Shown here: in pieces, positions 11,321-36,022 of the stretch
Layout of the letters: each line of letters begins with the position of its first letter
How positions within the stretch are numbered: position 1 is the stretch's first letter
Origin: Actinomycetota bacterium
GTDB taxonomy: Bacteria > Actinomycetota > Thermoleophilia > RBG-16-64-13
Direction of reading: 5' to 3'
DNA: 52,514 nt
Assembly (NCBI GenBank): GCA_018830645.1
Contig: JAHJSA010000073.1
Span: 1 to 52,514 of the forward strand
The notes under the pieces: model-generated
Databases searched by the model: none
Seen by the model: only the letters and a program-made list of their open reading frames with translations
Told to the model about the DNA's origin: nothing
Program-made: the position numbers and the translations under genes

Positions 11321-12676
11321 ATGGCGAAATACGTGATCGTTGGTAACGGTGTTGCGGGAATGCGCGCCGCTGAGGTGGTTCGGCGCGAAGACGACACAGC
11401 TGACGTCATCATCCTCAGCGAGGAGTCCCATCCGTTCTACAGGCGTCCTCAACTCGCCGACTTCGCCTCCGGCGCGGTGGGTGAGTCGAGGTTGTGGGCG
11501 AAGCGGTCCGAGTACTACGTGAAGCAGCGTTTCGACCTTCGCCTCTCCTCCAAGGTCGTGGCTCTGGACGCGGCGGGGCGCTCTGTCACCATGGCCGACG
11601 GGGGCACGGTGCACTACGACAAGATCCTCCTCGCCACCGGCCGGCGAGTCACGGGCGGGGGCGTTGCGGGCAGCGATTCGCCGGGGGTGAACCACTTCAA
11701 GACCCTCGATGAGGCCCGAGTGATCCGCGACATGGATGGGGCGGGGAAGGCCGGTCTCGTGTACGGCGACGGACTCGTAGCCCTCGAACTCGTGCGGGCG
11801 CTCACTTCGGCCGGGTTCTCCACCACCTACTTGGTGCCTGGGGCCGCCCTGTGGCCGGAGGTGCTCGACGTTGACGCGGCGGGCATCATGGCGAGCCGCA
11901 TCGGGGCCGCCGGTGCCGAGATCGTGTTCGGCGCCCAGGTGCGTGCGGTCGACGCCGACGAGAATCGCGCTCGGGGCTTGGTGTTCGCCGGCGGTGATGT
12001 CTTGAGCGCCGACGTGGTGGGATTGTGCGCCGGATACGAGCCGGCCCTCGAGTTCCTTCCCGACGCGGGAGGGGAACTCATGCTGGGGGCGGGCTATTCC
12101 ACCCAGTGGGACGGCGTGTTCGCCGCGGGAGACGTGACCGAGTCGCGCGATAACCGATATTTCAACTGGCTCCGCTCCTGGCGCCAGGGCGAAGCTGCGG
12201 GCGCGGCCATGATGGGTCTGCCCTTCGACGAACCCTCCCGCTTGAGTACCTTGAACATGGCCCCCCTCGGGCTCAGTCTCGTGGCGATAGGACAAACGAC
12301 GGTTGCGTACCGCTCCGGCTTCACCGAGATGCGGGGCGACTACCCATACGGTGAGGTGTACAAGAAACTGGTGTTCGCCGCCGACGAGACGCTCGTGGGC
12401 ACGCTTCTTCTGGGCAACATCGCCGAAGCGGGGGCGCTCGAGGAGGCCATCCGGGGCGGGGTCAAGAAGGCCGACCTGCCCGCAGGTCTGCTTCATCAGA
12501 TGTTCGACGTGACCTACCGGGTCATGGCGCGAGGCGTACAGTGCCCCATCTGCAAGCACGAGATCCAATTGGGGAGCGACGCGGCGGCGGGCGACTTGGT
12601 CACCTGTCCGATATGCGGCAGCGACCTTCGCCTCGTCGATGGCGCCGCCGGGTTCAGCGCTCGAGTGAGCGGATAG
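11321..12676 (+). CDS. FAD/NAD(P)-dependent oxidoreductase with C-terminal zinc-ribbon (NADH:rubredoxin reductase-like)
   Basis: A protein of 451 residues from the ATG at 11321, which follows GGAAGGAG. It has an FAD-binding Rossmann fold (YVIVGNGVAGMRAAEVV), the HPFYRRPQL active-site region, a second dinucleotide fold (about 145-240, GLVYGDGLVALELVRALTSA) and the flavin motif GVFAAGDVTE. This layout is that of NADH:rubredoxin/nitrite-reductase-like enzymes. Unusually, the C-terminus adds a two-knuckle metal ribbon, CPICKHEI...CPICGSDL. It probably feeds electrons to rubrerythrin, FprA or the neighbouring flavoprotein. A further TTG-started flavoprotein gene follows 8 bases later. Confidence 0.9.
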   Translation: MAKYVIVGNGVAGMRAAEVVRREDDTADVIILSEESHPFYRRPQLADFASGAVGESRLWAKRSEYYVKQRFDLRLSSKVVALDAAGRSVTMADGGTVHYDKILLATGRRVTGGGVAGSDSPGVNHFKTLDEARVIRDMDGAGKAGLVYGDGLVALELVRALTSAGFSTTYLVPGAALWPEVLDVDAAGIMASRIGAAGAEIVFGAQVRAVDADENRARGLVFAGGDVLSADVVGLCAGYEPALEFLPDAGGELMLGAGYSTQWDGVFAAGDVTESRDNRYFNWLRSWRQGEAAGAAMMGLPFDEPSRLSTLNMAPLGLSLVAIGQTTVAYRSGFTEMRGDYPYGEVYKKLVFAADETLVGTLLLGNIAEAGALEEAIRGGVKKADLPAGLLHQMFDVTYRVMARGVQCPICKHEIQLGSDAAAGDLVTCPICGSDLRLVDGAAGFSARVSG

Positions 12677-12684
12677 GGGGAGCT

Positions 12685-13269
12685 TTGAGCGTCACGGTGC
12701 TCGGGTTGGCGGGGAGTCCGCGGAGGAAGGGGAACACCGAGACCCTTCTCGATTGGACCCTCGACGCGGCGGCGGATGTCGGCGCCGACGTGGTGAAGTA
12801 CCGCCTCCGGGAACTCGACATCGGCTGCTGCATCGCCTGCGATGGCTGCGCCGAAGGCGGTGAGTGCATCGTCGCCGACGGCATGGACAAGCTCTACCCG
12901 CTTCTTCGGGAGGCCGACAGTATCGTGTTGGCCGCTCCCATATTCTCCATGGGCATGTCCGCTCAGGCGAAGGCGATGGTCGATCGCTGCCAGCCGTTCT
13001 GGGCCATGAAGTACCTGCTCAAGCAGCCGTTGAGACCGGATGGGGCTCCTGAGCGGCGGGGCGCCTTCCTTTCGTGCGCCGGCACCCGGTTCAGCACCGT
13101 CTTCGACGGCGCGCGCCAAGTGGCCAACTACTTTTGGCACGTGCTCGAGATCCAGCCTATCGGTGATCTGCTCTGCCCGGGCGTCGACGCCAAGGGCGAG
13201 ATCGAAGACTATCCCTCTGCCCGCACGGTCGCCGAGGATATCGGCCGGCGACTTGGCGAGCTGCGGTAG
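12685..13269 (+). CDS. Iron-sulfur flavoprotein / NADPH-dependent FMN reductase family
   Basis: A protein of 194 residues. The FMN phosphate loop LGLAGSPRRKGNTETLLDW is at the N-terminus. A compact cysteine cluster, C-I-A-C-D-G-C-A-E-G-G-E-C, matches the C-x2-C-x2-C-x4-7-C motif that binds a 4Fe-4S cluster in Isf proteins. PIFSMGMSAQAKAMVDR is the second flavin loop. Isf proteins transfer electrons in anaerobes, often to O2 or peroxide. The TTG start at 12685 is chosen because GGGGGAG precedes it and the Rossmann strand begins at once. Confidence 0.88.
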   Translation: MSVTVLGLAGSPRRKGNTETLLDWTLDAAADVGADVVKYRLRELDIGCCIACDGCAEGGECIVADGMDKLYPLLREADSIVLAAPIFSMGMSAQAKAMVDRCQPFWAMKYLLKQPLRPDGAPERRGAFLSCAGTRFSTVFDGARQVANYFWHVLEIQPIGDLLCPGVDAKGEIEDYPSARTVAEDIGRRLGELR

Positions 13270-13287
13270 CGTGGGTCCCCGGGCGGC

Positions 13288-13998
13288 GTGACCCGCTTCA
13301 TGGACCGCCCCGTTCACATCCTGGTCGTCGACGACGACGATAGCGTCCGCCGGCTGGTGGCCGCCTATCTCGAAGGCGAAGGCTACCTCGTGACGCAGGC
13401 CGCGGACGGGAACGCCGCGCTTCGCGCTGTCGCCGCCGACCCACCCGACCTTCTGGTTCTCGACCTCATGCTTCCTGGTGTCGGGGGCCTGCAGGTGGCC
13501 AGACGCCTCAAGGAGTCGGCCGGGGTGCCCGTGGTCATGCTCACGGCGCGCGGCGAGGAAGACGACGTATTGCGCGGGTTCGACGCCGGAGCGGACGACT
13601 ATCTGGTGAAGCCGTTCAGTCCCAAGGTCCTCGTGGCCCGGGTGCGGGCGGTGCTCCGGCGGGCCGGCCTCGACGAGGGCGAACCCGCGGCACCCATCGA
13701 GTTCCCGGGGTTGACCATCGACGAGAGGAGTCGCGAGGTCTTCGTGGACGGCGGTGTGGTCGAGCTGACGGCCATCGAGTTCGATCTTCTCCGTGCCCTG
13801 GTGGAGCATCCCGGATGGGTGTATTCGCGGGAACAGCTGTTGGAGCGGGTGTGGGGCTACGACTACCTGGGTGACTCCCGTGTGGTCGACGTGCACGTCG
13901 CGAATCTGCGTAAGAAGATCGGCGACGATCCCACGAGCCCGCGATTCGTCAGAACCGTGAGAGGGGTGGGGTACAAGTTCCAGGTGGCAGCCGGATGA
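13288..13998 (+). CDS. OmpR-family response regulator
   Basis: A protein of 236 residues. The receiver domain (about 8-120) has the acidic pocket VVDDDDSV, phosphorylatable Asp in LLVLDLMLPG, the switch Thr in VVMLTARGE, and K in YLVKPF. The winged-helix DNA-binding domain (about 140-232) carries ELTAIEFDLL and VVDVHVANLRKKIGDD. It overlaps the histidine kinase gene by four bases. GTG at 13288 or ATG at 13300 could be the start; neither has a strong ribosome site. Confidence 0.95.
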   Translation: MTRFMDRPVHILVVDDDDSVRRLVAAYLEGEGYLVTQAADGNAALRAVAADPPDLLVLDLMLPGVGGLQVARRLKESAGVPVVMLTARGEEDDVLRGFDAGADDYLVKPFSPKVLVARVRAVLRRAGLDEGEPAAPIEFPGLTIDERSREVFVDGGVVELTAIEFDLLRALVEHPGWVYSREQLLERVWGYDYLGDSRVVDVHVANLRKKIGDDPTSPRFVRTVRGVGYKFQVAAG

Positions 13999-24594: not shown

Positions 24595-25842
24595 TTAGCC
24601 GGTCGACATGCCCTGGAGTGTGGTCAAGGAGTAGCCGTTCATCAAGAGCCAATCGATGATCCCCGGGAGTGCCGCTACCGTCTGCGAACGATCGCCTCCG
24701 CCGTCGTGCATGAGGATCACGGCTCCCGGCTTCACGGCGGCCTTCACCCGCGAGGCGATCGACGCGGCGTCGCGGATCTTCCAGTCGAGCGTATCCACGT
24801 CCCACATCGCGATTCTCTGCCCCTGCCGCGCCGCCTCAGCGGCGACCGCTGCGTTGTAGGCTCCGTACGGAGGTCGCAGGAAGCGCGCCCCGCCTACGGC
24901 GGCGGCGCCTCGTGAGATCTCCGCGCTCAGACCATCGGCTCCCAGCTTGGTGAGGTCGGCATGACCCCACGTGTGGTTCTCGATCTCGTGGCCGGCCGCC
25001 CGGGCGTTCGCCGTCACCGACTTGTACGACGCAGCGACCTTGCCTATCCAGAAGAACGTCGCGGGCACCCCTTTCTTCTCCAGGATGGCGAGTATCTCCA
25101 CAGTGTGCTCACTCGGTCCGTCGTCGAACGTGAGGGCGACCGCCTTGTGGCCCGTCGGCACGGCGCTCGTGCGTTCGAGGAGGCCCACCTCGGCCTCGCG
25201 AAGCACGAACGCGGCGACAGGAGCGGTGCTGTGCTCGCCCCGGAACCGCTCTTCGAGCCCGGGCTTCCCTTCGCGCACTTGGGTGACCACGGGGCCGCTT
25301 CCCCGAGTCTCCCAGACGGGAGCGATCCCTTTCTCCTCCCGCCGCAGCCTCTCCGTGCGGTCCGCGCCTCTTCGGCCGACGATCGTCGCGCCGTCGTGGA
25401 GTACGCCGATGGCCGGGAACGGCCTTCCGTTCACCGAGACGAACCCGGATGCGCCGCCGCCCGGCAGTATCACGTCGCCGGTCACGTCAAGCGTGGACCC
25501 CGGTTGAAGCGAGAGATCTTGGAGTCCGGTGAGTTGTGCAAGGGTGGTGTCCCGCCCGATCTGCGCCACTACGCCGTCGACGGACACGAACTCCGAGGCG
25601 CCCAATCCTGAGGCCGGTCCGGCGAGCACCATGAGGAGCGCGAAGATGACGACGGCCAGGCGCTGTCGGCGGACGGTCCGTCGGGCGTCTCTGCGACGGG
25701 CGCCGTAGTCCGGCCCGGGACGGTCTTCGGTGACCTCCATGGCGGCGCCCGCAACGGCGTCTGGGACGGCGCCGGTGGCGGCCTGTGCGGCGGCACTCTC
25801 CGCGGCGGTCTTCGTGATGGCGTCTTCGCCGGCCCCTGTCAT
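24595..25842 (-). CDS. Secreted polysaccharide deacetylase (NodB domain)
   Basis: A protein of 415 residues. A single membrane helix lies at about 67-88 (AVVIFALLMVLAGPASG), preceded by a long Ala/Glu cytoplasmic tail and a basic stretch, RRRDARRTVRRQR. The catalytic NodB domain occupies the C-terminal half: LTFDDGPSEHT (metal Asp), HEIENHTWGHADL (two His), RPPYGAYN, WDVDTLDW and ILMHDGGG. It removes acetyl groups from cell-wall sugars at the outer face. Its ATG overlaps the stop of the NuoI/GltD fusion by four bases, an unexpected tail to a respiratory operon. Confidence 0.9.
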   Translation of the reverse strand: MTGAGEDAITKTAAESAAAQAATGAVPDAVAGAAMEVTEDRPGPDYGARRRDARRTVRRQRLAVVIFALLMVLAGPASGLGASEFVSVDGVVAQIGRDTTLAQLTGLQDLSLQPGSTLDVTGDVILPGGGASGFVSVNGRPFPAIGVLHDGATIVGRRGADRTERLRREEKGIAPVWETRGSGPVVTQVREGKPGLEERFRGEHSTAPVAAFVLREAEVGLLERTSAVPTGHKAVALTFDDGPSEHTVEILAILEKKGVPATFFWIGKVAASYKSVTANARAAGHEIENHTWGHADLTKLGADGLSAEISRGAAAVGGARFLRPPYGAYNAAVAAEAARQGQRIAMWDVDTLDWKIRDAASIASRVKAAVKPGAVILMHDGGGDRSQTVAALPGIIDWLLMNGYSLTTLQGMSTG

Positions 25843-27809
25843 GGGAGGCCATCCTTGTTGGGGAGTTCGTCGGGGGCGGAGAATTCCCGCAGCATCTTCT
25901 CTCGGTCGTAGAAGAGCTCGCGTCGCGACCGCGTAGCGTAGTCGAAAGAGGCGGACAGGCTCAGAGTCTGGGTGGGGCACACGTCCTGGCAGAACCCGCA
26001 GAAGCAGCACCACTCCATGACGAAGTCGTAGCGTTCCACGCGCCGCTCGTATCCCGTGTCGTACCCTTGCACGTCGATGCAGTTGTCCGGGCATACGCGG
26101 GCGCACATGGTGCACGCCACGCACACCTGGGTCTGGCACCGCATGCAGCGGATCGCTTCTTTGTGGTCGTCGCCTTTGGGCCAGCCGAGCTCCACTTGAC
26201 CGCCGGTGCGGATGCGCTTCTGTGGTTCCGATTCCGGCATGTGCACCCGGCGACCACCGGGGCCGAACCACTCGAAATCGGGCGGGGTGGAGGTATACAG
26301 CTTCTCGAGGTAGTACTCGGGTGGGTGCACCGGCGGCGGCCGGTCGTGGTCGAGATCAAGGTCTTGGATGTAACGGTGCGCGGAGATGGCGGCCTCGTGG
26401 GCTTGGCCGATGGCGATGATGATGGTCTTCGGTCCCATGGCCAGGTCTCCCGCCAGGAACACCCCGGGCACCGCGGTCTCTCCCGTCGCCTGGGCGCAGA
26501 TCGGACGGCCGACGGCATCGAACTCCACGCCGGACCCCTCGAGGAAGTCGAGCTGCAGGCTCTGGCCTACGGCGAACACGACCGTCTGGCACGGGATCAC
26601 CGTGGATTCGCCGGAATATTGGAGGTTCCACTTGCCCGTCGCGTCAAAGCGGGAGAGCACCTTCTTCAGGCGGACGCCCACCACTTTGCCCCCTTCCACC
26701 AGGATCTCGTCGGGGCCCCACGAGGAGAAGAGGATCACCCCCTCCTCGATGGCTCCCGAGACCTCGATCGCCTGTCCGGGCATCTCCTCGCGCGTCTCGA
26801 CATGGGCCTGCACGGAGCTGGTCGCTCCGCAACGCAGGGCGCTTCGTGAGCAGTCGCAGCCCACGTCGCCACCGCCGATCACCACCACTTCGGGCCCCAC
26901 CTTCGGGTTCTTGCCCATGCAGTACTCGTAAAGGAAGTCGATCGCCGACCAGACGCCTTCGGCGTCGTGGCCGGGAATAGGCAGTACGCGCCCGCCGGAG
27001 TAGCCTACGGCCACGATCACGGCGTCGTGGTCCACTTTGAGTTGGTCGAGCGTCACATCCGTGCCCACCGTCACGCCGAACTTGAACTCCACGCCGAGTT
27101 CGGCCAGGTCGGCGATCTCCTTGGTCACCACTTCCCGGTCGAGGCGGTAGAGGGGGACGCTGGTCACCAGCAGGCCGCCGGCGATCTGCTCCCGTTCGTA
27201 GATGGTGGCGCGGTACCCCATCTGCACCAGGTCGTATGCGGCGGCCAGCCCGGCCGGGCCGGCGCCCACGATGGCCACGTGTTCGGAACGGTGCACCAGG
27301 CTGGCAAGGTGGCCGGGGTACCGCACCTCGCGGTCGTACACCTCGTAGCAGGCCCGATGGAGCTGCCGGATAGCGATGGGGTCGTCGAGGTACGAGCGAC
27401 GGCAGACATCTTCGCAGGGGTTGTTGCACACGTAGCCGAGCACCGCGGGCAGCACGTTGCGTCGTCGCACGATGTTGTAGGCCTCGATGTAACGTCCGGC
27501 GGCCACGAGCGCGTTCTGCCCCCGGGCGTCCACATTGGCGGGACAGCCGCCCTGGCAGGGGGCGATGCGTTGCTCCTCGTGCAGTTCGGTCATCAGGTCG
27601 TTGAACTCGAGCGGCGGCGCGTCGGTGATCGGCGGGGGCTCGTGATCCATGACGCCGCGCAGGCGAAGCGGGCCCCGCCAACGGGGAGACAGCTGGGCCG
27701 GTTCGTGGGGATACATGCGCGTCACCGGCGGCGAGACCATCCGCTTCATGGTCTCGATGTGGCCCTTGGCGATGCCCACCCACGGCCTGACGAGGTCGTC
27801 GAGGCTCAT
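25839..27809 (-). CDS. NuoI interrupted by a GltD-like FAD/NAD(P) oxidoreductase module
   Basis: A protein of 656 residues with a split architecture. Residues 1-52 are the NuoI N-terminal arm (LVRPWVGIAKGHIETMKRMV ending SPRWRGPLRLRG). Residues about 60-545 are a glutamate-synthase beta-like flavoprotein: PCQGGCPANVDARG, YVCNNPCEDVCRRS, FAD fold VAIVGAGPAGLAAAYDLVQM, NAD fold VVVIGGGDVGCDCSRSALRC, and GVFLAGDLAMGPK. Residues 555-610 return to NuoI with two ferredoxin clusters, CVACTMCARVCPDNC and CCFCGFCQDVCP. It would carry electrons from NAD(P)H straight into the Q-module, replacing NuoEFG. It overlaps nuoD by four bases. The start is ATG 27809. Confidence 0.9.
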   Translation of the reverse strand: MSLDDLVRPWVGIAKGHIETMKRMVSPPVTRMYPHEPAQLSPRWRGPLRLRGVMDHEPPPITDAPPLEFNDLMTELHEEQRIAPCQGGCPANVDARGQNALVAAGRYIEAYNIVRRRNVLPAVLGYVCNNPCEDVCRRSYLDDPIAIRQLHRACYEVYDREVRYPGHLASLVHRSEHVAIVGAGPAGLAAAYDLVQMGYRATIYEREQIAGGLLVTSVPLYRLDREVVTKEIADLAELGVEFKFGVTVGTDVTLDQLKVDHDAVIVAVGYSGGRVLPIPGHDAEGVWSAIDFLYEYCMGKNPKVGPEVVVIGGGDVGCDCSRSALRCGATSSVQAHVETREEMPGQAIEVSGAIEEGVILFSSWGPDEILVEGGKVVGVRLKKVLSRFDATGKWNLQYSGESTVIPCQTVVFAVGQSLQLDFLEGSGVEFDAVGRPICAQATGETAVPGVFLAGDLAMGPKTIIIAIGQAHEAAISAHRYIQDLDLDHDRPPPVHPPEYYLEKLYTSTPPDFEWFGPGGRRVHMPESEPQKRIRTGGQVELGWPKGDDHKEAIRCMRCQTQVCVACTMCARVCPDNCIDVQGYDTGYERRVERYDFVMEWCCFCGFCQDVCPTQTLSLSASFDYATRSRRELFYDREKMLREFSAPDELPNKDGLP

Positions 27810-29029
27810 CGGTCCACGTCTCCCATCACCGGGTCGATCGTACCCACGATATTGATCAGATCGGAGAGCGTGTAGCCCACCGAGAGCGCGGGCAGCATCG
27901 CCACGTTGTGGAACGAAGCGCCCCGCCACTTCATGCGGTAGGGCTTCATGCCGCCGTCGCTCACGAGATAGCAGCCGATCTCCCCGCGCGGGGACTCGAG
28001 GCGGGCGTACGCTTCCCCAGGGTCGGGCGTGGGCAGGCGCGGCACCCGCTTCGCCAGGATCGGCCCGGTCGGCATGTCCTCGATGGCCTGGTGGATGATC
28101 TTCGCGCTTTCCACGATCTCCTGGAAGCGCACCTCGGTGCGGTCGTACACGTCGCCGGTCGTCCCCACCGGTATATCGAAGTCGAACCGGTCGTAGATGG
28201 AGTACGGCATGTCGCGTCGGAGGTCCCAACGTATCCCCGTGCTCCGCAGCACCGGACCCTGGGCGCCGATGCGCATCGCCTCGTCGGGCGAGAGCGTGCT
28301 GATGCCCTTGGAGCGTTCGTGCCAGATGTAGTTGTCGTGGAAGAGGGTGCGGTAGCTCGGCAGCTCGTCGATCACGCTTCGCACACCCTCGCGCACGCGA
28401 TCAGTCCAGCCCGGCGGTGCGTCGTAGATCACTCCTCCCAAGCGGAGGTAGACGTAGGTGAGCCTCGCCCCGCTGATCTCTTCGAGCAGCTGCACGAGGC
28501 GCTCCCGCGCGTTGAAGCACCACAGGAAGTAGGAGGTGGCGCCGCTGTCGAGTCCCAGGGCCCCCACCGACATCAGGTGGCTGGTGATACGGTTGATCTC
28601 GCCCACGATCATGCGCAGGTGCTCGGCGCGCTCGGGCACCTCGATGCCCATGAGCTTCTCGGCGGCCAGGCAGTACACCCAGTCGTTATGCATGGCGGCC
28701 AGGTAGTCGGTGGTGCGGTCGGTGAACGCGATCACCTGATGGTAGCTCCGGTTCTCTACGATCTTCTCGAGCGAGCGGTGCATGTAGCCGATGCGCACGT
28801 CGAGGCCGGCGACCTTCTCGCCGTCGAGCCGCGTGACCATACGCATCACCCCGTGCGTGCCGGGGTGGTGTGGCCCGATGTTGATCAGGAAGTCCTGGAC
28901 GTCGTCGGGCGCCGCGTACTCGCCCTCGGGGATCAGACGCTCGGGAGCGGTGCCGGTGCCGGCGGCGCCTGTGGCGTCGGCGGCTTCGCCGGTATCGACT
29001 GTGCCGGGTGGGAGGTCGTCTCGGGTCAT
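27806..29029 (-). CDS. nuoD: NADH-quinone oxidoreductase subunit D
   Basis: A protein of 407 residues, the 49-kDa subunit that forms the quinone cavity with NuoB. It shows INIGPHHPGTHGVMRMVTRL, the RIGYMHRSLEKI block, MGIEVPERAEHLRMIVGEIN and PRGEIGCYLVSDG. The N-terminal 35 residues are low-complexity (Ala/Thr/Gly). The gene stands 4 bases after nuoC and overlaps the NuoI fusion by four bases. Confidence 0.97.
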   Translation of the reverse strand: MTRDDLPPGTVDTGEAADATGAAGTGTAPERLIPEGEYAAPDDVQDFLINIGPHHPGTHGVMRMVTRLDGEKVAGLDVRIGYMHRSLEKIVENRSYHQVIAFTDRTTDYLAAMHNDWVYCLAAEKLMGIEVPERAEHLRMIVGEINRITSHLMSVGALGLDSGATSYFLWCFNARERLVQLLEEISGARLTYVYLRLGGVIYDAPPGWTDRVREGVRSVIDELPSYRTLFHDNYIWHERSKGISTLSPDEAMRIGAQGPVLRSTGIRWDLRRDMPYSIYDRFDFDIPVGTTGDVYDRTEVRFQEIVESAKIIHQAIEDMPTGPILAKRVPRLPTPDPGEAYARLESPRGEIGCYLVSDGGMKPYRMKWRGASFHNVAMLPALSVGYTLSDLINIVGTIDPVMGDVDR

Positions 29030-29033
29030 GGTG

Positions 29034-29555
29034 TCAGAAATACTCCGGCCGCTTGATATCCATGTGATCCACGTAGTCCTTGCGAAGGGGGTGCCCCTCC
29101 CAGGTCTCGGGGTTGAGGATGCGCTTGAGGTCGGGATGACCGGCGAAGACCACGCCGAAGAGATCGAACACCTCTCGCTCCTCCCAATCAGCGAGGAACC
29201 ACAAGTCGGTGACCGTGGGCACCTCGAAGCCGTCTCGAGGGATCCGAATCGAAAGGCGGGTGACCAGTCGGGTGTCGAACGAGTAGGCCTGGAGGGTGAG
29301 AGTGAAGTGGGCGGGCCAGTCGAGGCAGGTGAGAAAGTCGAAGCGGTCGATGCCCTGAGAGCGCACGAACTCGGCCGCGCTCCGGTAGCCCGAGGCCGTC
29401 GTCACGAGGCAGACCGCGCCGTCCCGCGAGTCGTGATAGCCCACGAGCGCGGCGCCGAGTCGCTCACGCGCCGCCGCCACGAACCCATCGCGGGCCTCCC
29501 CGTGCGCACCGGCCGAAGGTTGCCACCCCTTGCCCGGAACGGGGGCAGCGCTCAC
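29034..29555 (-). CDS. nuoC: NADH-quinone oxidoreductase subunit C
   Basis: A protein of 173 residues. The 30-kDa subunit signature [20 protein letters not shown] and [19 protein letters not shown] is complete. The start is GTG 29555, which overlaps the nuoB stop as GTGA. Confidence 0.95.
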
Positions 29556-30166
29556 GAGTCGCCGCCCTCCGTCTCGCCGCGGATCACGCGCTCCAACTCC
29601 AGGATGCCGTCGATGAGCGCCTCGGGCCGCGGCGGGCAGCCCGACACGTACACGTCGACCGGGATCACCTGGTCGACGCCCTTCACCACGCTGTAGCCGT
29701 CGTGGTAGTAGAGGCTCCCGGCGGTGGCGCAGTTGCCCATGGCGATGACCCAGCGCGGCTCCGGCATCTGGTAGTAGACCCGCTCCACCATGGGTGCCAC
29801 CTTGTAGGTGACCGTGCCCGAGACGATGAGAAGGTCCGACTGACGGGGTGACCCACGAGGCATGACGCCGAACCGGTCGAGGTCGTAGTGCGAGGCGTTG
29901 GCCGCCATCATCTCGATGGCGCAGCAGGCGAGCCCGAACATCATCTGCCACAGGGAGTGGGAGCGCGCCCACGAGATCATCTGTTGCGCCGAGTGGAGCA
30001 CGGCGCCGGGCGCGACGAGCAGCGGCCCGAATTCCCTGTGCTCCGGCCGGTTCAGCGGGACGATCGCCCCGTGCTCGATCCAGCGTCGGGGCGGTGTCGG
30101 GGCGGTGCCGTCTGTGTCGGAGCCTGCGATCTGTCTCACCTCTGCCTTGTCGTGCGGCCGCCACAT
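29552..30166 (-). CDS. nuoB: NADH-quinone oxidoreductase subunit B
   Basis: A protein of 204 residues. It carries the N2 4Fe-4S cluster motif: adjacent cysteines in [12 protein letters not shown], then [12 protein letters not shown] and [16 protein letters not shown]. It is the first gene of the minus-strand arm (B-C-D-I) and is divergent from nuoA. Confidence 0.97.
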
Positions 30167-30340
30167 TGCCAGGTCGTTCGGCTGGGCGCGCGGAGCCCGC
30201 CTCCGGTCTGCCGTGCCCGTTCACGGCGTCCCCGAAACAATGCGCCGCCCGGGGGACCGCCGCCCGCCGTCCTCGATCTTGATTATGCCCACGGGCTTCG
30301 GGGTACGCAACCCAGGGTCATCGACTGAGGGAGGGTGGGG

Positions 30341-30709
30341 TTGAGCGGGGCGTACCTGTCGGATGTGCTGTTCCTGCTCGGTTTCGCCGTGGCGGTCGTG
30401 ACCATCCCTCTGGTCACCCTCGCCGCCTTCGGTTGGTTGCGTCCCCACTACCCGGAAGCGTTGAAGGCTGAAGCCTACGAGTCGGGCATGCCGCAAGCCA
30501 GTATCCCGCGGCGGCCGTTTCACATGGCCTATTACAACTTCGCTCTGGTATTCATCGTGTTCGAGGTCGAGACGCTCCTGCTGTTCGCGGTGGCTCCGAT
30601 CCTGCGCGACGCTGGGTGGCTCGGACTAGCTGAGGTGGGCGCCTTCGTGGCGCTCGTCGCCCTCAGCCTGTTCTATGCGTGGCGCAAGGGGGCGCTGGTG
30701 TGGAGGTGA
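30341..30709 (+). CDS. nuoA: NADH-quinone oxidoreductase subunit A
   Basis: A protein of 122 residues with three membrane helices. It shows YESGMPQASIPRRPFHMAYY and FALVFIVFEVETLLLFAVAP, the classic NuoA blocks. TTG at 30341 is chosen because GAGGGAGGG lies upstream at a normal distance. GTG 30335 is the alternative. Confidence 0.95.
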   Translation: MSGAYLSDVLFLLGFAVAVVTIPLVTLAAFGWLRPHYPEALKAEAYESGMPQASIPRRPFHMAYYNFALVFIVFEVETLLLFAVAPILRDAGWLGLAEVGAFVALVALSLFYAWRKGALVWR

Positions 30710-31671
30710 GCCTGCCCCTCACCTTCGCTGCCGGTCTACTGTGGGGCGCCGTGGCCTTCACCATCGTCGGCGCGCTCACGGCCGGGCTGGTCCTGGCCGA
30801 GCGCAAGGTGTCGGCCCGCATACAGGGTCGCGTCGGCCCGATGCACACCGGCCCTCATGGAGCGCTGCAGACCATCGCCGACATGATCAAGCTGGTGATG
30901 AAGGAAGACGTGCGCCCCGCCCGCGCGGACGCGACCGCCTTTCGGCTGGGCCCGCTGCTCGTGGCGGTGCCCGCGGTCCTGTCTCTCGCGGTGATACCGT
31001 TCGGCGCTCCCCTCGTGATGCGCGACTTGAACGTGGGGGTGCTCTACTTCTTGGCCATCCCCGGGGTGACCGTGATAGGCCTCCTTCTCGCGGGGTGGGC
31101 CAGCTACGACAACTATTCGTTCCTCGGTGGGCTGCGTTCCTCGGCCCAGTTCATAAGCTACGAGATCCCGCGGAGCCTCACGGTGGTCACGGTGGTCATG
31201 CTCGCGGGCTCGCTGAGCACGGTGGACGTGCTCGAGGCGCAGCGCAGTGTGCCGTACGTGGTGCTCCTTCCATTCAGCTTCTTCCTGTACTGCGTGACCT
31301 CGCTGGCCGAGATCAACCGTCTGCCCTTCGACATGCCCGAGGCGGAGTCGGAGCTGGTGGCCGGCTATCACACCGAATACTCGGGGTTCCGCTGGGCGTT
31401 GTTCTTCCTCGCCGAGTATGCCGGGTTCTTCGCGGCCGCAGCCTTTGGCGCGGTTCTGTTCCTCGGCGGCGGGAGTGGTCCGCTTCTTCCGCCCGTAGTC
31501 TGGTTAGCCGTGAAGACCGCCGTCTTGTTGTTCATAGGTATGTGGATCCGCTTCACGCTGCCGCGCTTCCGCGCCGACCAACTCATGCGCCTCGCTTGGA
31601 AGGTGTTCCTGCCGGCCTCCCTCGTGAACCTCGTGCTCGCGGCCCTCATCATGCGGGCGGTCGGTTCGTGA
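30706..31671 (+). CDS. nuoH: NADH-quinone oxidoreductase subunit H
   Basis: About 321 residues with eight membrane helices. The quinone-channel motifs are AERKVSARIQGRVGPMHTG, MKEDVRPARADATAFRLGPL and SLAEINRLPFDMPEAESELV, which includes the acidic loop. GTG 30706 overlaps the nuoA stop as GTGA; GTG 30700 is also possible. Confidence 0.97.
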   Translation: MSLPLTFAAGLLWGAVAFTIVGALTAGLVLAERKVSARIQGRVGPMHTGPHGALQTIADMIKLVMKEDVRPARADATAFRLGPLLVAVPAVLSLAVIPFGAPLVMRDLNVGVLYFLAIPGVTVIGLLLAGWASYDNYSFLGGLRSSAQFISYEIPRSLTVVTVVMLAGSLSTVDVLEAQRSVPYVVLLPFSFFLYCVTSLAEINRLPFDMPEAESELVAGYHTEYSGFRWALFFLAEYAGFFAAAAFGAVLFLGGGSGPLLPPVVWLAVKTAVLLFIGMWIRFTLPRFRADQLMRLAWKVFLPASLVNLVLAALIMRAVGS

Positions 31672-32171
31672 GCGAGCCGCAGAACGTCGAACAGCTGCTG
31701 TTCATCGCGTTCGGGATCGTCGCTGCAGGCGGCGCCCTCTACGCGGTCGTGACCCGCTCGCTCCTGCGATCGATCATCGCGCTGGGCGCCTTCCTGACCG
31801 CCGTGGCGGGCGAGTTCTACCTGTTGGCGGCCGATTTCCTCGCCGTGGTGCAGATATTCGTGTACGTGGGCGGTATCGTCGTGCTCATGTTGTTCGCGCT
31901 CATGCTCTCGGCGTCGGGTGTGCGGCATCCCTTGGCGGCGATCGATCGGCCCGCCCTCGGCGCCGCGCTTGCGTACTCTCTCGGGGCGGGAGTGCTCTGG
32001 GGTTCCCTGACCACCGAGCTCCCCGCGGTGGGAGAGCTTCCCGCGGACGCCGTCGACGCCCTCGGGCGGGCGCTCCTGGGCTCGCAGCTCTGGTCGTTCG
32101 AACTCATCGGCGTGATCCTCTTGGCTTCGGTGATCACCGCGCTCGTCATCGTGAGAAAGGAACGTCGATGA
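31668..32171 (+). CDS. nuoJ: NADH-quinone oxidoreductase subunit J
   Basis: A protein of 167 residues with five membrane helices. The helix-3 signature YLLAADFLAVVQIFVYVGGI, VVLMLFALML is intact. The GTG overlaps the nuoH stop (GTGA). NuoI, normally between H and J, is on the opposite strand here. Confidence 0.95.
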   Translation: MSEPQNVEQLLFIAFGIVAAGGALYAVVTRSLLRSIIALGAFLTAVAGEFYLLAADFLAVVQIFVYVGGIVVLMLFALMLSASGVRHPLAAIDRPALGAALAYSLGAGVLWGSLTTELPAVGELPADAVDALGRALLGSQLWSFELIGVILLASVITALVIVRKERR

Positions 32172-32208: not shown

Positions 32209-32511
32209 ATGACCACAGCTGCGGTCACCCTGTCTTCGGTGCTCTTCGCCATCGGCGTGTTCGGTGTGCTCACCCGGCGCAACGCCATCTCTCTGCTCGT
32301 CTCAGTGGAGATCATGATGAACGCTGCGATCATCAACCTCGCGGCGTTCTCGCGTCTGTACGAGCCGGAGGCCATGACGGGGCAGGTGTTCGCCCTGGTC
32401 GGCATCGGCATCGCTGCCTGTGAGGCCGCCGTTGGGCTCGCCCTGGTGCTGGCGGTCTACCGACGCTTCGGTAGCACCGACGTGGACTCGATCGACCTCC
32501 TCAAGGGTTGA
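32209..32511 (+). CDS. nuoK: NADH-quinone oxidoreductase subunit K
   Basis: One hundred residues with three helices, including the conserved glutamates in LLVSVEIMMNAAIINL and GIAACEAAVGLALVLA. It lies 37 bases after nuoJ and overlaps nuoL. Confidence 0.96.
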   Translation: MTTAAVTLSSVLFAIGVFGVLTRRNAISLLVSVEIMMNAAIINLAAFSRLYEPEAMTGQVFALVGIGIAACEAAVGLALVLAVYRRFGSTDVDSIDLLKG

Positions 32512-34535
32512 CGGGCGTGACCGCCGTTCTCGTCGGGATGTTCGCCGCTCCGCTTCTGGTCTGCATCGCGCTTCTCGTGGGGGGTGCCCTCACGTCGCGT
32601 CTCGACGAGACCGCTTCGCTCCGCCTGAGGGCTCTCGCGGGCTGGATCTCAGTCGCCGGTACCTTCACCGCGTTCGTGCTGGCGCTCGTCGGCCTGTTCG
32701 CCGTCCAGGCGGGGGAGGAGCCGGCGCTCCGTGCCGTGTGGTTCGAAGTGGGGGGCCTCGAGGTGCCGTTCAGTCTGAGGTTGGATGGCCTCCAGGCGGT
32801 GATGGCGCTGGTCGTGTCGGCGGTGGCCCTCCTGGTGCACCTCTACTCGATCGGCTACATGCACGGCGATCGCGACGCCACCGTCTACTTCGCCGAACTC
32901 TCTCTCTTCACGTCGGCCATGCTCCTTCTCGTGCTCGCATCCAACTTCTTTCTGCTCTACGTGGCCTGGGAACTCGTGGGGGCGAGCTCCTATCTCCTCA
33001 TCTCCTACTACTTCCAGCGGCCGGAAGCGGCCGCGGCGGGGAAGAAGGCCTTCTTGACGACCCGCGTAGGCGACCTCGGTCTGCTCGTGGCTGTGTTCGC
33101 GATCGTGTCTCAAGCCGGGTCGTTCGACTACGACGCCGTCTTCGCCTGGGCGGCCGAACCTGGGTTTGCGGGTGCCTGGGCGGTCGCCGTACCCCTTCTG
33201 GTGTTCGCGGGAGCGGTGGGCAAGTCGGCCCAGTTTCCCCTGCACGTGTGGCTTCCCGACGCCATGGAAGGCCCCACGCCGGTCTCGGCGCTCATCCATG
33301 CCGCCACCATGGTGGCGGCCGGCGTGTACCTGGTCGCGCGCGCCTACCCGCTCTTCGAGGCGGCCCCGATCTCACTCGATGTCGTGGCGTACGTTGGCGC
33401 CTTCACGGCCCTGATGGCCGCGTCCATCGCCGTGGCGCAGTCGGATATCAAGAAGGTGCTCGCGTACTCCACGATCAGCCAACTGGGTTTCATGATGGCC
33501 GCGCTCGGGGCGGGCGCCCCTTCCGCAGGCATCTTCCATCTGTTCTCGCACGCCTGGTTCAAGGCCCTTCTGTTCCTGGGGGCCGGCAGCGTGATCCACG
33601 CCACCGGCCGTCAGACGGTGGCGCGACTCGGTGGCTTGGCTAAGCGTATGCCTGTGACCGCGTGGACCTTCGCCGCAGGGGGCTTGGCCCTCGCGGGTAT
33701 CCCCCCGTTCGCGGGTTTCTGGAGCAAGGAGGAGGTGCTGGCGGGGCTGGCTGTCCATCATCCGGTTCTGCTGGGCCTGCTCCTTCTCGCGGGGTTCCTC
33801 ACGGCGTTCTACATCGCGCGGCTGTTCTTTCTCGTGTTCTTCGGGCCTGAGCCTGTGGATGCCGGCGAGTACACCGCCGAGGGCACCGCCGATGAGCACG
33901 CCGCCGCGCCCGGCGGCGCTGTGGCGGAGGCCGGGCACGGGCATGACGCCGCGGGCTCCGGTAGCCGGGGCGCCTGGTCTGGAGTGAAGGAGTCCGGGTG
34001 GGTGATGAGCCTGCCGCTCGTGGTGCTCGGGGTGGCGTCGCTGATCGCCGGGTTTGTGGGCACGGAGTACTTCGGCCGACCCCTGCAGGATCTGCTGAAC
34101 CTCGAGCCCGCCGGCGCCGCGGCGGCCCACGAGGCGCCCGTCTGGCTTCCGTGGGTGGCGACGCTCGCCGGGTTGGCGGGTGTGGGTGGAGGGTGGCTCG
34201 CGTACGGGCGCCGTGCCGGCCGCTCCGGCGGCCGGGGATTCGATGCTCGGCTCGAGGGTGCCCTCGGTGGTGCCTATGGCGTGGTTGCACGTGGCTATCT
34301 GGTCGACGAGTTCTATTCTCGGGTCGTGATACGGCCTTTCGCGGCGGCGGGCCGCTTCGCCTGGCGGGGCGTGGACGGACGCGTCATCGACGGCTTCGTC
34401 GATGGACTCGCCCGCGTCGTGATCGCCGCTGGGGGGTTGGTGCGACGCCTGCAGTCGGGTGAGGTGCGCGACTACCTGGCGGCGATGGCCGTCGGCGTGA
34501 TCCTGGTCGTGGCTCTGGCGTTGGGGGTGCTGTGA
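32508..34535 (+). CDS. nuoL: NADH-quinone oxidoreductase subunit L
   Basis: A protein of 675 residues with about 16 membrane helices. Antiporter-like motifs are LYVAWELVGASSYLLISYYF, FLTTRVGDLGLLVAVFA, AQFPLHVWLPDAMEGPTPVS, ALIHAATMVAAGVYLVARAY and FSHAWFKALLFLGAGSVIH. A low-complexity His/Gly/Ala linker lies at about 455-490. The C-terminal part is the lateral-helix region. TTG 32508 overlaps the nuoK stop (TTGA); GTG 32517 is an alternative. Confidence 0.96.
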   Translation: MTGVTAVLVGMFAAPLLVCIALLVGGALTSRLDETASLRLRALAGWISVAGTFTAFVLALVGLFAVQAGEEPALRAVWFEVGGLEVPFSLRLDGLQAVMALVVSAVALLVHLYSIGYMHGDRDATVYFAELSLFTSAMLLLVLASNFFLLYVAWELVGASSYLLISYYFQRPEAAAAGKKAFLTTRVGDLGLLVAVFAIVSQAGSFDYDAVFAWAAEPGFAGAWAVAVPLLVFAGAVGKSAQFPLHVWLPDAMEGPTPVSALIHAATMVAAGVYLVARAYPLFEAAPISLDVVAYVGAFTALMAASIAVAQSDIKKVLAYSTISQLGFMMAALGAGAPSAGIFHLFSHAWFKALLFLGAGSVIHATGRQTVARLGGLAKRMPVTAWTFAAGGLALAGIPPFAGFWSKEEVLAGLAVHHPVLLGLLLLAGFLTAFYIARLFFLVFFGPEPVDAGEYTAEGTADEHAAAPGGAVAEAGHGHDAAGSGSRGAWSGVKESGWVMSLPLVVLGVASLIAGFVGTEYFGRPLQDLLNLEPAGAAAAHEAPVWLPWVATLAGLAGVGGGWLAYGRRAGRSGGRGFDARLEGALGGAYGVVARGYLVDEFYSRVVIRPFAAAGRFAWRGVDGRVIDGFVDGLARVVIAAGGLVRRLQSGEVRDYLAAMAVGVILVVALALGVL

Positions 34536-36022
34536 TGGAGGCGGCGCTGCTCCTCTTCCCCAAGGCTGCTATCGGTATCGCCGTCATGCTGGCCCTCGTG
34601 CTGGATTCCCTTGCACCCGGACGCGCCCGGCGGAACCTGATCGTCGCGACCGTCGTTCTGCTGACGGTCGGCGCGGTGGTGGCCGCAGTGGGCATCGGAC
34701 GCTCTGCGTCGTTCATGGACGGCGCCCTCGTGGTCGACCGGTACTCGATCTTCAGCGACATCGTCTTGTTGGCTCTGGGCGCCCTCGTAACGCTCGCCGC
34801 TCTCGACTCGGTCGGGTCAAGCAGCGATGCCGGCGACTTCCACGTGCTGCTCTACCTTTCGCTGGGCGGCGCCTCCGTGCTGGCCTCCGCGGGCAACCTG
34901 ATCGTGGTGTTCCTGGCCATCGAACTCGCCATCATCCCCACGTTCGCCCTCGTCGCGTTCCGCGCGGACGACCGGCGCAGCTTCGAGGCGGCGCTCAAGT
35001 ACTTCCTTCTGAGCGTGTTCGCGTCGGCGGTGCTTCTGTTCGGACTCTCGCTGATCTACGGGAGCACTGGTTCGGTGCGGCTGCCTCCCGGGACGGAGGT
35101 GGTCGGGTCGAACATGCTGCTCATAGGCGTCGCCCTCGTGCTCGTGGGGTTCGGATTCAAGCTCGCCGCCTTCCCCTTCCACCAATGGCTTCCGGACGCT
35201 TTCGAGGTGTCGCACCCCGAAGTGGCGGCCTTCTTGGCAGTGGGGCCCAAGTTGGCGGCGGTCGTGGCGCTCGTGCGGATACTCGAGGGTCTCACCGCCC
35301 TCAGCGGAGCCTGGACGGCGGCGGTGGCGGGGGTGGCGTTGCTCACCATGCTGTGGGGGAACCTGGGCGCCTTCCGGCAGACCCGTCTGCCACGTCTTCT
35401 CGCGTACTCCGCGATCGCCCATGCCGGGTACGCCCTGGTAGGTCTTGCCGGGGGAGGCGCGCCCGGTATGGACGGCGCGGTCGTGTACTTCGCGGCCTAC
35501 AGCGCGGCCGCGTTGGGAGCCTTCTTGGTCGTGGCGATGCTGACGCGGGACGGATTCGGCGACCGGCTCTCCGATCTGCGCGGGCTGGGCCGCCGCCGCC
35601 CTCTCCTGGCCGCTGCGATGAGCATCTTCATGGTCTCCATGATCGGGGTTCCGCTGTTCGCCGGGTTCTGGGGGAAGTTCTCGGTGTTCCTGGGCGCGAT
35701 CGAGGGCGGGCTGGTGTGGCTGGCCGTGGCGGGAGTTCTGAACAGCGCCATGTCGTTCGGGTACTACGGCAACGTGATCAGGCTGATGTACTTCGGAGAC
35801 GCGGAAGGCGAGTTCGCCGCATCAGGCGAGCCTGATGCTCTCGGTGAGCCCGCCGCTCAAGGCGAGCGCGGTGCTCTCGGCGAGCGCGGTGTCGCCGCGC
35901 CGGCCCGTCAAAGGGCTTGGGGGCAGCGGCTTGCGCTCGGGGCGGCAGTGGTACTGACCCTCCTGCTTGGGATCGTCCCCTCCCTCTTGTTCGGGGCGCT
36001 GGGGGTCTCGTCGGGGTTCTGA
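34535..36022 (+). CDS. nuoN: NADH-quinone oxidoreductase subunit N
   Basis: A protein of 495 residues. NuoN rather than NuoM is shown by ALKYFLLSVFASAVLLFGLS followed by LIYGSTGS, FKLAAFPFHQWLPDAFEVSH and AYSAIAHAGYALVGLAGGG. A repetitive Gly/Glu/Ala linker (GEPDALGEPAAQGERGALGE) is inserted before the last helix. It starts where nuoL stops (TGATG). No nuoM lies between nuoL and nuoN. Confidence 0.95.
   Translation: MEAALLLFPKAAIGIAVMLALVLDSLAPGRARRNLIVATVVLLTVGAVVAAVGIGRSASFMDGALVVDRYSIFSDIVLLALGALVTLAALDSVGSSSDAGDFHVLLYLSLGGASVLASAGNLIVVFLAIELAIIPTFALVAFRADDRRSFEAALKYFLLSVFASAVLLFGLSLIYGSTGSVRLPPGTEVVGSNMLLIGVALVLVGFGFKLAAFPFHQWLPDAFEVSHPEVAAFLAVGPKLAAVVALVRILEGLTALSGAWTAAVAGVALLTMLWGNLGAFRQTRLPRLLAYSAIAHAGYALVGLAGGGAPGMDGAVVYFAAYSAAALGAFLVVAMLTRDGFGDRLSDLRGLGRRRPLLAAAMSIFMVSMIGVPLFAGFWGKFSVFLGAIEGGLVWLAVAGVLNSAMSFGYYGNVIRLMYFGDAEGEFAASGEPDALGEPAAQGERGALGERGVAAPARQRAWGQRLALGAAVVLTLLLGIVPSLLFGALGVSSGF

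Follow-up and report, generated by a model that had tools for sequence, protein, structure and literature searches.

What supplies electrons to a complex I whose N-module, i.e., NuoE, NuoF, and NuoG, is missing? The donor to such enzymes is a long-standing question, with ferredoxin being the usual proposal. The stretch of DNA analysed here (52,514 nucleotides in total, and hereafter ‘the window’) raises this question in an unusual form, as its nuo cluster encodes a NuoI that is split by a GltD-type flavoprotein module. With a probability of roughly three in four, that module would be the NAD(P)H entry of complex I, replacing NuoE, NuoF, and NuoG. The fusion would then be a likely and testable answer, written in the gene itself, to the question of where many ‘incomplete’ complex I enzymes get their electrons. 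The result looks like a convergent replacement of the N-module, by an NAD(P)H dehydrogenase that is covalently joined to NuoI and unrelated to NuoF, and it would alter the energy metabolism predicted for many Actinomycetota of the subsurface.

One NuoI in two pieces

The fusion gene, nuoI::gltD (25839..27809), is found on the minus strand and encodes 656 amino acids. It runs from an ATG at 27809 through a final sense codon that extends to 25842, with the stop codon at 25839-25841, and overlaps nuoD by 4 bp; that is, the start codon of the fusion and the stop codon of nuoD share the letters ATGA. The NuoI sequence is split after approximately residue 52 by an insert of about 500 residues, which separates the N-terminal arm from the clusters. 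All of the features of a NuoI are present, i.e., the arm, two ferredoxin-type clusters, and the C-terminal extension.

The arm (residues 1-52; 27654..27809, minus strand) ends in SPRWRGPLRL, is helical over residues 3-25 in the AlphaFold2 model, and is aligned in 20 homologues. The dicluster domain with its two C-x2-C-x2-C-x3-CP motifs, together with the C-terminal extension (25842..26135, minus strand), matches NuoI chains of the PDB with an E-value of 5.9e-22. TIGR01971, a model of NuoI, consequently matches the fusion in two separate pieces: model positions 5-36 at the arm (E 1.4e-4) and positions 40-121 at the C-terminus (E 1.7e-21, 77.6 bits). The whole-protein score is 92.7 bits, which is under the curated cut-off of 113.05, the match being interrupted by the insert. 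A sequence-only reading of this DNA had proposed that the first 52 and the C-terminal residues are one NuoI, with this same arm end and these same cluster motifs, and that a whole GltD-like FAD/NAD(P) module lies in between. This description holds up in each respect, with matches to Fer4_20 and to Pyr_redox_2 falling between the two NuoI pieces.

The first of these matches is to the Fe-S domain of GltD (27339..27563, minus strand; Fer4_20 E 8.9e-11), with cysteines 85, 89, 128, 132, and 136 in M1 numbering. The second is to the two-dinucleotide-binding FAD/NAD(P) domain (26364..27281, minus strand; Pyr_redox_2 E 2e-26), which is recognised as well from the motif table, including GxGxxG motifs, and from PDB matches. 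Its second Rossmann motif reads IGGGDVGCDCSRS...HVETREEMPG. The GltD-dicluster family PRK12771 (NF009410) spans fusion residues 80-619 but at 407 bits stays below its cut-off of 516, as do three other fused proteins that were scanned (466-493 bits). Proteins of the PRK12771 type share with the fusion a GltD core, a permuted EAxRCLxC segment, and a C-terminal dicluster, but unlike the fusion they have no NuoI arm.

As judged from its sequence, the GltD module of the fusion is circularly permuted, with its N-terminal segment moved behind the FAD/NAD domain. The relocated segment (RVHMPES...QVELGW...EAIRCMRC, residues ~521-559; 26133..26249, minus strand) contains Cys 555 and Cys 558. With phmmer, residues 522-576 (P0001 numbering, which is M1 numbering plus one) align to the part of Pyrococcus NfnI (residues 8-58) that corresponds to the N-terminus of an unpermuted GltD, though taken alone this alignment scores 8.8 bits (E 3.5). 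The EAxRCxxC motif of the segment is kept in the fused homologues, 20 of which were aligned. The RCxxC is C-terminal to the FAD/NAD domain in the fusion rather than N-terminal to the Fe-S domain as in the GltD family. It is because of this permutation that the pair, Cys555 and Cys558, comes directly before the first NuoI cluster. In GltD relatives that pair is part of the distal cluster.

The cluster cysteines number 15 (86, 90, 129, 133, 137, 556, 559, 564, 567, 570, 574, 602, 605, 608, and 612; P0001 numbering). All 15 are present in 18 of the 19 fused proteins tabulated, and the remaining one (L083) differs by a single Cys to Ser replacement. The AlphaFold2 model of the fusion has a pLDDT of 80.9 and a pTM of 0.79. 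Its best structural matches, over model residues 78-588, are StnC, from the Stn transhydrogenase of Sporomusa ovata (8oh5), and the large subunits of NfnABC (9bov, 9n5u), with Z of 36.5-38.5. In these proteins, at about 30% identity, a GltD precedes Fe-S domains that share their ancestry with complex I, just as in the fusion. In StnC and NfnABC, however, the GltD is joined to a NuoG-like part within a soluble bifurcating complex, whereas here it is joined to a NuoI part within what is predicted to be a quinone-reducing ion pump.

The complex I around it, and its relatives

The genes about the fusion form two divergent half-operons. On the minus strand the fusion is accompanied by nuoD (27806..29029), nuoC (29034..29555), and nuoB (29552..30166). 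On the plus strand are nuoA, which starts the other half (30335..30709), nuoH (30679..31671), nuoJ (31668..32171), nuoK (32209..32511), nuoL (32508..34535), and nuoN (34532..36022). NuoB retains the motifs for the ligands of cluster N2, and NuoD retains GPHHPGTHG and the TDRTTDY region (TDRTTDYLAAMHND) with no NiFe cysteine motifs, as read by eye. As the N2 and quinone-site motifs are present and those for NiFe are absent, this is a complex I of the quinone type and not a hydrogenase. The nuo cluster of the window has no nuoE, nuoF, or nuoG, an absence claimed from the sequence beforehand and borne out by reading of the cluster.

The fusion is not peculiar to this genome. Full-length fusions were found in no fewer than 21 of the 396 genomes sampled from the phylum (10 families), and in a related class, that of G349, 60 of 199 genomes have the fusion (15 families), a few of the latter being cut by contig ends. 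Many anaerobic Actinomycetota possess a NuoI with a built-in flavoenzyme. The suggestion of looking for Fer4 and GltD domains inside of NuoI was well founded, this architecture recurring in the place of nuoI across some 24 families. As it is seen in dozens of independent genomes, chance and misassembly are ruled out as its source. A scan of genome contigs found only four close relatives, and a search of plasmids yielded a single partial match, one lacking the NuoI arm. In one genome (L052 of G076, 11585-13674) the fusion is split near residue 424, by a frameshift or instead by a sequencing error.

The surroundings of 37 fusion clusters were read (a set of 23, including the window, plus another 14). 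All have nuo genes on both sides as far as their contigs extend, none has nuoE, nuoF, or nuoG, and in every one with a complete neighbourhood the fusion replaces nuoI. In most fused clusters this place is between nuoH and nuoJ, as it is for canonical NuoI. The window's own family (f1) has the fusion in seven genomes of several genera, and the divergent arrangement, nuoBCD-fusion versus nuoAHJKL, is kept across it as far as contigs extend.

Could NuoEFG be supplied from elsewhere? For 14 genomes no NuoI other than the fusion was detected, and three of these that are 98-100% complete (G254, whose fusion cluster is seen in L095, along with G305 and G324) have no NuoF homologue. Supply from elsewhere thus fails as a general rule, being impossible for these three if their assemblies are complete. 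It may occur in the window genome, which has four NuoF homologues, all outside of the fusion cluster. A genome search for nuoEFG had been called for by the sequence-only reading, for which nuoEFG elsewhere along with a separate, full NuoI would have counted against the idea. A separate NuoI indeed exists in the window genome, as do NuoE and NuoF homologues. The complex I to which that NuoI belongs, however, also is without nuoEFG, and the NuoE and NuoF homologues are in loci of formate-dehydrogenase, HdrA-like, and CODH types, as named by reading of their sequences. One such locus (L015, contig C106 of G000) consists of two tandem NuoE-NuoF-FdhA-like sets, in the second of which FdhA is divided over two ORFs.

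This second complex I is found on contig C19 and has 11 genes, in the order A-B-C-D-H-I-J-K-L-M-N, with an ordinary NuoI that is above the TIGR01971 cut-off. Eight other fused genomes likewise have a NuoI match besides the fusion. Elsewhere, G349 has two nuo loci, one with the fusion, and G477 has both the fusion and an ordinary cluster in which a nuoG-like gene adjoins nuoH and nuoI.

Proposed electron entry and its alternatives

Under the preferred reading, NAD(P)H, which for the window's subtype is probably NADH, would bind to the second Rossmann fold and pass hydride to FAD. From FAD single electrons would move to two GltD-type clusters, the proximal one with Cys89, 128, 132, and 136 as its putative ligands, and the distal one, beside the first NuoI cluster, with Cys85 together with Cys555 and Cys558. 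The path would then continue via the two [4Fe-4S] clusters in the NuoI part, N6a and N6b, to N2 in NuoB and from there to quinone at the NuoD/NuoB/NuoH site, with quinone reduction coupled to ion pumping through NuoL and NuoN. What the sequences show directly is the architecture, the conserved ligands and motifs, the place in the operon, and the lack of nuoEFG; the model would add to these that cofactors bind, which residues are their ligands, which coenzyme is preferred, how the clusters are spaced, how the parts dock, and in which direction and with what coupling the complex runs. In StnC, a comparable path leads from NADPH by way of FAD, C7, and C6 to additional clusters, and both structure and mutations support it (PMC10482914). 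Counting against the preferred reading, NADH could be oxidised in the window genome by the other complex I and by several loci that contain NuoEF, the relocated GltD segment has a low score when taken by itself, and the cluster has no NuoM.

Complex I is reversible, and direction therefore is a physiological rather than a structural matter. The same architecture might run in reverse, with quinol and an ion gradient reducing NAD(P)+ at the GltD module while another complex I runs forward. The 11-gene complex I of the window genome could be that partner, and the coenzyme motifs described below, LE/VE versus YRR, suggest different coenzyme pools, of which an NADPH type would suit biosynthetic supply. 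The fusion, though, is the only detected NuoI in many fused genomes, and in consequence we consider reverse operation to be unlikely.

Still less probable, in our judgement, is that ferredoxin is the main donor to NuoI, with GltD instead either a site of electron bifurcation or a side branch that links ferredoxin with NAD(P)H. Ferredoxin has been proposed as donor to the 11-subunit enzyme of Desulfitobacterium (PMC11238625) and in Anaerosomatales (PMC9686372). The GltD-like NfnB, moreover, bifurcates, and the arginine of a YRL motif is invariant in the fused proteins. StnC, however, does not bifurcate even though it has the matching arginine (PMC10482914). Among the nuo genes of the fusion operons no second acceptor module, NfnA or HydBC-like, is seen, and if GltD were a side branch, there would be no obvious reason for a donor module to be welded into NuoI next to its first cluster.

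Weakest, and very improbable, is a soluble or membrane-attached GltD-ferredoxin enzyme outside of the complex, with the NuoI of another cluster serving both complexes: the window genome and eight other fused genomes do have a NuoI to spare, but the 14 fusion-only genomes do not, and the fusion keeps an N-arm and a NuoI C-terminal extension that stand-alone relatives lack.

NAD(P)H entry through the GltD module, to return to the preferred reading, can be set beside known systems. Canonical 14-subunit complex I, with its NuoI (Nqo9, TYKY), shares with the fusion the N-arm, the two CxxCxxCxxxCP clusters, and the C-terminal extension, but it has NuoEFG and no GltD insert. The complex I-like enzyme of Desulfitobacterium hafniense has the same ABCDHIJKLMN set without EFG, but its proposed donor is ferredoxin (PMC11238625), whereas in the fusion NuoI itself contains an NAD(P)H-type module. 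With FpoF, i.e., F420H2 dehydrogenase, and with Campylobacter-type complex I, an alternative input likewise replaces the NADH module (PMC12361115, PMC11238625), but those donors are separate proteins using F420H2 or flavodoxin/ferredoxin. In a survey of Nuo subunits from 2025, CD and BCD fusions are named, and a NuoI::GltD fusion is not mentioned in the passages found (PMC12361115).

No description of the fusion was found in the open-access literature searched. A further point of comparison is strain Es71-Z0120 of Parvivirga hydrogeniphila. Its complex I is described as being without NADH input, and of its two nuo loci one is listed as NuoACDHJKLM, i.e., without NuoI, donors such as ferredoxin being inferred (PMC9686372). 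New here are the permuted GltD with its RCxxC abutting the first NuoI cluster, the two coenzyme motifs, an origin that is not single, and the absence of nuoM from the window's complex.

Coenzyme, antiporter subunits, and origin

An LE or VE pair is found at the coenzyme site in the window family, in f51, f76, f68, f59, and f78, and in all 14 clusters of the second set that was read. YRR is found at the same site in f29, f55, f73, and f14. The general Rossmann rule suggests use of NADH by LE/VE forms and of NADPH by YRR forms, and the coenzyme of the window's fusion thus is probably NADH.

The window's cluster has every other Q-module and membrane subunit (A, B, C, D, H, I, J, K, L, and N) but no nuoM. 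Nor is there a nuoM between L and N in other fusion clusters of the window family, whereas complete fused clusters of other families do carry it. It is not hidden elsewhere, as the genome has just one NuoM, that of the C19 cluster. NuoL keeps its long helix at full length, with 76 residues from DEFY onwards in the window versus 75 in its C19 counterpart. The two complexes may share a NuoM, or the window's complex may run on only two antiporter-like subunits. In G046 (L093, C3) and G004 (L094, C13) a second NuoM is found in nuoAHJKLMN clusters that have no match to B, C, D, or I, which perhaps are membrane arms with another partner. The fusion clusters of f55 and f73 (L085, L086, and L087; G459, G450, and G485) have extra NuoL/NuoM-like genes past nuoN.

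Stand-alone GltD relatives have no NuoI match, their tails being HdrA/MvhD-like or ferredoxin-like, so a NuoI-type tail goes with the complex I context. A GltD with a generic ferredoxin tail is ruled out for the fusion by NuoI-specific matches that the stand-alone relatives do not have. In a tree the fused GltD parts form three groups. A single origin for all of them is rejected (AU p 3.2e-5), while one capture for groups 1 and 2 (p 0.156) or for groups 2 and 3 (p 0.083) is not. There were, therefore, at least two captures, or instead a single capture and an exchange afterwards, at one and the same position in NuoI. A NuoB/D/H tree does not cleanly separate fused from ordinary complexes. A broader picture, which we hold tentatively and would sooner doubt than assert, is of a widespread class of complex I, as yet undescribed, whose N-module gave way on two or more independent occasions to a GltD flavoprotein at the same NuoI point, with NADH- and NADPH-type versions, and with the window family a ‘low-gear’ form having only two antiporter-like subunits, i.e., lacking NuoM.

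GltD also is found in other fusions. Three ORFs of about 1000 aa (L036, L039, and L042) have GltD behind a NuoF-like C-terminal sequence, which is another joining of GltD to an N-module part. Four more GltD-containing ORFs, of 1000-1300 aa (L030, L031, L038, and L044), have other ferredoxin-like sequence ahead of the GltD.
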